In this document: piece by piece, positions 53,427-56,188 of the stretch
Layout of the letters: each line of letters opens with the position of its first letter
Position numbering within the stretch: the stretch's first letter is position 1
NCBI GenBank assembly: GCA_016177615.1
Contig: JACOUX010000030.1
Location: 1-59,007 of the forward strand
Length of the DNA: 59,007 nt
From: Candidatus Woesearchaeota archaeon
GTDB taxonomy: Archaea; Nanobdellota; Nanobdellia; Woesearchaeales; GW2011-AR4
Reading direction: 5' to 3'
The notes under the pieces: model-generated
Database searches by the model: none
The model's input: the letters and a program-made list of their open reading frames with translations, nothing else
What the model was told of the DNA's origin: nothing
Made by a program: the position numbers and the translations under genes

Positions 53427-53521
53427 TTTGACACATTTGTTACTAATATTTATAAGTTTTATTGAAAATGCCGGCAAATAAACAAAATTTTATAAATAGC
53501 CAAGATAAACCAAAACCCACT

Positions 53522-53777
53522 GCCGAGGTCGCATAGCCCGGCCATTGCGGTGATTTTTGGTGGCAAAGTGAGCGGTTTTCGCTCGCATCTAACTAAAAAC
53601 TGCAAGATTGCTATGGGCTTTAACCTTTCAGGTGGCACAAAAATCCACTGTCCGAAAGGACACGGGAGTTCAAAACAACCTTTTTGCAAGCAAAAAGCTT
53701 GACCAAAAATAGTTTCCTCCGGAAACTTAAAGGATTTGCTTCGCAAATCTTCGGTTATGAAAGTCTCCCCCTCGGCG
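53522..53777 (+). tRNA. tRNA-Ser (GCT) with three introns
   Basis: Exons 53522-53552, 53606-53613, 53643-53674 and 53764-53777 (85 nt mature). Spliced, they give acceptor GCCGAGG/CCTCGGC with discriminator G, D-stem GCA/TGC, anticodon stem GTGGA/TCCAC with loop TTGCTAA (anticodon GCT), variable arm GTCC-GAAA-GGAC and T-arm GGGAG-TTCAAAT-CTCCC. Introns: 29/30 (53 nt), 37/38 (29 nt), 59/60 (89 nt). Intron 1 has central helix GCGG/CTGC, bulges TGA and AAG, and a TTTTT/AAAAA stem; intron 3 has TTCA/TGAA between bulges AAA and AGT. Intron 2 is relaxed. TATA box TTTTATAAATA lies about 30 nt upstream. Confidence 0.93.
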
Positions 53778-55873: not shown

Positions 55874-55907
55874 CGTTTATAAAAGAGGTTTAATTCTCAG
55901 ATAGTAT

Positions 55908-56129
55908 AGCGGGATAGGGCTTTTGCGGCCTTAACCGACCGCAGACCTAAGAGCCAGGAGTGCCCGATGATTTTGTCAGGTTTCTGGCATGATCGGATGG
56001 CTCATACGGCGTGTCTGCCTTAGACACCCATATTAGTCAAATACTAAGGGCATAGGTCGGTGGAGGTAGTCAAAAACTATCGCCGAATTCAAACTGAAGC
56101 TTGGCTTCATGGAAGTCCACCTCCCGCTA
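55908..56129 (+). tRNA. initiator tRNA-Met (CAT) with six introns
   Basis: Exons 55908-55920, 55952-55969, 55999-56006, 56026-56031, 56054-56063, 56088-56093, 56116-56129 (75 nt). Spliced: acceptor AGCGGGA/TCCCGCT with the initiator A1-U72 pair, D-stem GGGC/GCCC, anticodon stem ATGGG/CCCAT with the initiator G-C triplet, loop CTCATAA, T-arm GGTGG-TTCAAAT-CCACC, discriminator A. Introns at 13/14 (31 nt), 29/30 (29), 37/38 (19), 43/44 (22), 53/54 (24), 59/60 (22). Central helices include TAGG/CCTA, CCGA/TCGG, CGGT/GCCG and TTCA/TGGA, each between 3-nt bulges, with intron stems of 5-9 pairs. The 37/38 intron is relaxed; the 43/44 cut is uncertain by 1-2 nt. TATA TTTATAAAAG at about 55876. Confidence 0.93.
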
Positions 56130-56188
56130 TCAGAAATAGTTTGCTTGAGGGGTTTTTCCTCTCAAGCTTCTTTCTATTCTTACGAAAT

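Follow-up and report, generated by a model that had tools for sequence, protein, structure and literature searches.

An initiator tRNA-Met gene very probably split by six bulge-helix-bulge introns in a Woesearchaeota genome

The initiator tRNA-Met locus of an uncultured, small-genome Candidatus Woesearchaeota archaeon is very likely a functional gene carrying six bulge-helix-bulge (BHB) introns, each of which is spliced out. Seven colinear exons (13, 18, 8, 6, 10, 6 and 14 nt) lie at 55908-56129 (+) of the window, by which we mean the whole 59,007-nucleotide stretch of DNA analysed, and together they form a 75-nt initiator tRNA-Met with introns at 13/14, 29/30, 37/38, 43/44, 53/54 and 59/60 (tRNA numbering). 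This conclusion rests on near-identical intron-less genes, the presence and absence of the introns in relatives, covariation in introns 1 and 2, the BHB register and a conserved promoter; the exon sequence, the exact cloverleaf, the presence of an EndA gene and the failure to find a second initiator gene are also shown. Transcription, cleavage at these sites, the order of removal, ligation and the ligase itself are inferred, without RNA or biochemical data. The original prediction, made from sequence alone, had proposed the seven exons with these lengths and position and the six intron sites, and both claims held exactly (the exons by sequence, ARAGORN and RNAfold). Its interpretation as a six-intron initiator is now supported by independent evidence, with splicing still an inference. 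The features of the locus are as follows.

55876-55883, +: TATA-like box TTTATAAA, beginning 32 nt upstream of exon 1
55908-55920, +: exon 1, AGCGGGATAGGGC; acceptor 5' strand and D-stem 5' strand
55921-55951, +: intron 1, site 13/14, 31 nt; BHB TAGG/CCTA, bulges GC^T and AG^A, 7-bp stem
55952-55969, +: exon 2, AGCCAGGAGTGCCCGATG
55970-55998, +: intron 2, site 29/30, 29 nt; BHB CCGA/TCGG, 9-position stem with one mismatch
55999-56006, +: exon 3, GGCTCATA; anticodon CAT
56007-56025, +: intron 3, canonical site 37/38, 19 nt; BHB CTCA/TTAG (3/4 pairs)
56026-56031, +: exon 4, ACCCAT; boundary set by G018, G012 and G001
56032-56053, +: intron 4, site 43/44, 22 nt; BHB ACCC/GGGC (3/4 pairs), TTAGT/ACTAA stem
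56054-56063, +: exon 5, AGGTCGGTGG; variable loop and T-stem 5' strand
56064-56087, +: intron 5, site 53/54, 24 nt; BHB CGGT/GCCG, GGTAGT/ACTATC stem
56088-56093, +: exon 6, TTCAAA; T-loop
56094-56115, +: intron 6, site 59/60, 22 nt; BHB TTCA/TGGA, TGAAGC/GCTTCA stem
56116-56129, +: exon 7, TCCACCTCCCGCTA; T-stem 3' strand, acceptor 3' strand and discriminator A, CCA not encoded
56143-56180, +: possible terminator, hairpin GCTTGAG...CTCAAGC with a T-rich stretch after it (direct sequence reading)

Neither ARAGORN nor Rfam reported a tRNA in the unspliced locus, and ARAGORN allowing intron lengths up to 300 also gave no match there, which is expected because the gene holds six introns. Once spliced, the sequence was called tRNA-Met(cat) by ARAGORN over positions 1-75, and the minimum-energy fold of the 75-mer is the cloverleaf, at -34.2 kcal/mol (RNAfold). 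The product shows the initiator traits, namely the CAT anticodon, the A1-U72 pair and an AUGGG/CCCAU anticodon stem whose three G-C pairs adjoin the loop, as archaeal initiator tRNA-Met demands; the A1-U72 pair and the three G-C pairs had been predicted and held in the spliced fold. The original prediction would have been refuted by a fold search yielding no cloverleaf, which was not the outcome, or by a second complete initiator gene, which was looked for in the genome carrying the window (G000; 1.54 Mb, 67 contigs, 99% complete by markers) and not found. With the spliced initiator as query, no contiguous copy was detected within G000, where the exon-1 pattern has a single occurrence.

Contiguous, intron-less initiator genes from two other genomes of the same phylum match the spliced 75-mer closely: that of G114 is identical at 73/75 positions (97%, E 6.6e-31), and that of G271 shows 95% identity over 75 nt (E 2.5e-28). 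When these independent genes served as queries for spliced alignment, the locus scored 94 and 86 (2 and 4 mismatches over 75 nt), compared with a best score of 26 among 200 dinucleotide shuffles and of 28 elsewhere on both strands of the 59-kb window.

A single BHB register fits 6/6 junctions. In this register a run of four exon bases, ending two bases short of the intron, pairs with four bases close to the intron 3' end; the three-base bulges are cut behind their second base, and the inner intron stem comes next. The central helices form 22/24 pairs (4, 4, 3, 3, 4 and 4 out of 4 for introns 1 to 6), so that introns 3 and 4, with one central-helix mismatch each, represent the relaxed BHB form; in intron 6, the T-stem can act as the outer helix. 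The central and first inner pairs together number 50, against a maximum of 36 in 100,000 intron shuffles, and the register was matched in none of the 100,000. The original prediction had recognized BHB logic at five junctions, which is corrected here to six, the mismatched introns 3 and 4 included. When the entire unspliced precursor is folded, the predicted minimum free energy (MFE) structure (-86.8 kcal/mol) does not accommodate all six BHBs at the same time, and constraining the fold to all six gives about -61 kcal/mol; therefore, intron removal would have to be co-transcriptional, stepwise or assisted.

We then compared the gene with its counterparts in 19 other members of the genus and 16 further members of the family. 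The 24 further initiator loci of the family hold between 0 and 4 introns: none in G022; one in G013, G016, G002, G003, G019, G020, G024, G029, G028, G030 and G032; two in G005 and G021; three in G015, G009 and L197, and by reading also in G031 and G035; and four in G018, G001 and G012. Six introns occur only in G000 within this family series. The G017 gene shows three introns up to the contig end, and that of G004 (L123), with introns at 13/14, 29/30 and 37/38, resembles the three-intron genes but has an irregular D-loop. Several bases of the AGCCAGGAG stretch normally present there are missing, reflecting either an assembly error or an altered tRNA.

For every one of the six sites, at least one relative has an intron there while carrying a different intron subset overall. 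The 13/14 intron is also found in G018, G015, G009, G004 and G028 (in the last of these alone), and the 29/30 intron in G018, G015, G009, G004, G012, G017, G005, L197, G031 and G035. Introns at 37/38 and 43/44 are both present in G018, G001, G012 and G017, while a shorter 37/38 intron (13-14 nt) occurs in G015, G009, G004, G005 and L197. The 53/54 intron is the sole intron of G013 and G016, and the 59/60 intron recurs in G001 and G012. Relatives also use additional sites, at 15/16 and 22/23 in linear numbering. After splicing, the locus of the window and each of eight other loci that were tested were called tRNA-Met(cat). The comparison also settles one boundary: the 43/44 junction can slide three bases when G000 is taken alone, and the intron ends in G018, G012 and G001 fix it. 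Several relatives carrying the 29/30 intron come from groundwater.

The stems of introns 1 and 2 show covariation among these genomes. In intron 1, 11/11 pairs are kept across six genomes, three stem pairs have changed on both sides in a compensatory manner, and 100% of cells are paired; in intron 2, four stem pairs show compensatory changes in nine sequences. Paired fraction and covariation score are both higher than in nearly all shuffles and in every slid control. Because the sequences are related, we regard this covariation as support rather than proof. Upstream of exon 1, a TTTATA or TTTTTAAA box lies at a distance of 30-34 nt in 22/23 initiator loci examined in the family, with G029 as the sole exception, and this conserved TATA-like box therefore argues for a live gene.

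In the model we propose, the gene's own TATA-type promoter would direct a single precursor of about 222 nt plus flanks, EndA would cut the six BHB motifs, each between the second and third bases of its three-base bulges, and the seven exons would be joined by a ligase, after which end trimming and CCA addition would yield the mature tRNA. In the central helix of each motif, the last exon bases before the intron would pair with that intron's own 3' end; each intron would thus bring its own splicing signal and be removable singly. The absence of RNA evidence, a precursor MFE fold without the six BHBs, the relaxed introns 3 and 4, and the lack of an RtcB gene in the assembly all count against the model.

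The putative splicing endonuclease is encoded by one gene. G000 has one PF01974 match, inside a 201-aa ORF (EndA), which is near in sequence to the catalytic subunit of N. equitans (3iey_A) and to M. jannaschii EndA (1a79_A) and, over its length, aligns with archaeal EndA proteins of known structure. The alignment with the M. jannaschii enzyme is almost gapless and reveals no extra loop. It suggests that the G000 enzyme could be of the plain, single-gene alpha type, although its oligomeric state is inferred and a divergent beta subunit is not excluded. Alpha-type EndA has been described as stricter in specificity (PMC12397907, PMC4090602), which fits poorly with the relaxed junctions of introns 3 and 4 and weighs against the six-BHB model. 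A divergent ORF beside EndA (L087, 2155-3045, +) resembles RNase Z, the tRNA 3'-end nuclease (named by eye).

RtcB, the expected ligase, had no match in the G000 assembly by profile or protein search, and the ATP-dependent RNA ligase family PF09414 had none in G000 or the genus. Since 15/19 other genus members possess RtcB, an assembly gap is the simplest and probable reading, and the question remains open; G008, G014, G017 and G018 also lack it, but they are only 71-84% complete, compared with 99% for G000. In relatives, rtcB is split by 30-33-nt inserts (L199 in G003, L200 in G009, L202 in G001, L204 in G010, L205 in G012, L206 in G024, L201 in G006, L203 in G016 and L207 in G031), and once these are excised the conserved GHWGYGFP or GFDINCG motif is intact again. 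Among those tested, the inserts of G003, G012 and G024 form a BHB with 4/4 central and 9-10 inner pairs, and those of G016, G006 and G031 form a weaker one at another site. In relatives with such BHB inserts, the RtcB message would itself need splicing. Two RtcB frames of 992 and 1021 aa (G019:C18 and G025:C23) match the family in two pieces and might hold an insertion such as an intein.

Three other explanations of the locus were weighed. The first is a chance mosaic, in which seven short exons let some stretch of DNA resemble a tRNA: exons of 6-8 nt are indeed short, and six breaks allow many degrees of freedom. This possibility is all but excluded and we count it as already refuted, by the intron-less gene matches, by the intron patterns of the relatives, among which one-intron genes hold the same exons contiguously, and by the independent-query scan, which gave 86-94 at the locus and no more than 28 elsewhere. 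A decayed initiator pseudogene that has collected insertions, with the true gene in an unassembled part, is very improbable. An assembly of 67 contigs at 99% completeness could miss a gene, and RtcB is already missing. However, 75/75 exon bases fit a perfect cloverleaf, a BHB in one shared register accompanies each insertion, the promoter is conserved, and the relatives' own initiator genes hold the same insertions, of which introns 1 and 2 carry compensatory changes in their stems; random insertions would not yield such a pattern.

It could also be that the gene is real but that introns leave in composite steps (for example 3+4 or 5+6), or that the cut sites differ somewhere by at least one base. 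Exons 4 and 6 are just 6 nt, the 43/44 junction has its three-base slide in G000, and the central helices of introns 3 and 4 are imperfect, all of which would favor this view. Composite removal, however, would lose exon bases needed for stem and loop, and relatives have 37/38 without 43/44, 53/54 without 59/60 and 59/60 without 53/54; the separate occurrence of the members of each pair argues for separate units. We therefore hold composite or shifted cutting to be very unlikely and retain the model of six individually removed introns.

The published ceiling for archaeal tRNA genes is three introns. The tRNAscan-SE 2.0 paper gives up to three per gene (PMC8450103), and a review states "a maximum of three introns" (PMC4033280), bearing out the figure of about three that the original prediction had quoted. 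Nothing relevant on more than three introns per tRNA gene was found in the literature searched, where Woesearchaeota and tRNA introns together gave only a study of group I rRNA introns (PMC6125680). Six introns would thus be twice the published maximum, in a tRNA essential to the cell. The record claim stays provisional because multi-intron tRNAs are numerous in the Asgard genomes of another study (PMC11291895), whose per-gene counts may be higher. The kind of intron is already known (ordinary BHB introns), and what would be new is the number per gene.

Comparable systems share some features of the locus and differ in others. Thermoproteales (Pyrobaculum and relatives) likewise carry several BHB introns per gene at canonical and non-canonical sites, with stepwise removal assumed, but their published maximum is three per gene rather than the six of the Woesearchaeota initiator, and they use a crenarchaeal alpha-beta heterotetramer endonuclease, in contrast to the single alpha-type EndA gene inferred in G000. 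The Asgard Atabeyarchaeia and Freyarchaeia (PMC11291895) have introns in most tRNA genes, often at non-canonical sites and over half with several; they belong to a different phylum, and a higher per-gene count there is not excluded. ARMAN-1 and ARMAN-2 (PMC4033280, PMC12397907) likewise combine small genomes with unusually placed tRNA introns and relaxed BHBs, but they possess the epsilon2 enzyme, built on a three-unit epsilon protein, whereas G000 encodes just one 201-aa EndA, which seems to have none of the extra loops associated with relaxed specificity. In Thermofilum pendens the initiator tRNA gene is also disrupted, there by permutation of its parts (PMC4090602), whereas the exons of G000 are colinear and separated by introns.

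Orthologues with 0, 1, 2, 3, 4 and 6 introns, in which shared sites are variously combined, make up a natural series usable for studying tRNA intron gain and loss and how the endonuclease copes. A bolder reading, which we consider likely, is that this gene is spliced at six positions, more than known for any other tRNA gene, and that in its Woesearchaeota family BHB introns have spread widely through tRNA genes and into rtcB, so that the machinery has to splice the message for a part of itself.

Other tRNA genes place the initiator in context. Only 15 tRNA genes in G000 exceed the Rfam cut-off; at E 1e-6, all family members have 2-21, while counts of 30-42 are reached in several other families within the order. 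A hidden tRNA-Ser(GCT), unseen by ARAGORN and Rfam, lies at 53522-53777 (+) of the window and becomes perfect once three introns (53, 29 and 89 nt) are removed. Because of the low tRNA counts across the family and this three-intron gene, we view the initiator as the extreme of a family-wide tRNA intron habit. Hidden intron-split genes help account for the mere 15 or so tRNA genes that standard tools return for this near-complete genome and for the comparably low numbers in the rest of the family, and tRNA counts read too low as a completeness gauge for such archaea. The tRNA-Ser(GCT) gene overlaps a doubtful ORF at 53459-53746 (-). A tRNA-Asp-like locus with six apparent introns (L025) was rejected as a second six-intron case; on reading, it resembles a tRNA-Leu(GAG) with about one intron. 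Intron counts for other isotypes are approximate and qualitative only, as the simple spliced aligner is noisy with a distant query, and many other tRNA loci of G000 (L004-L028) seem to hold 1-3 introns, for example at T-loop site 59/60.
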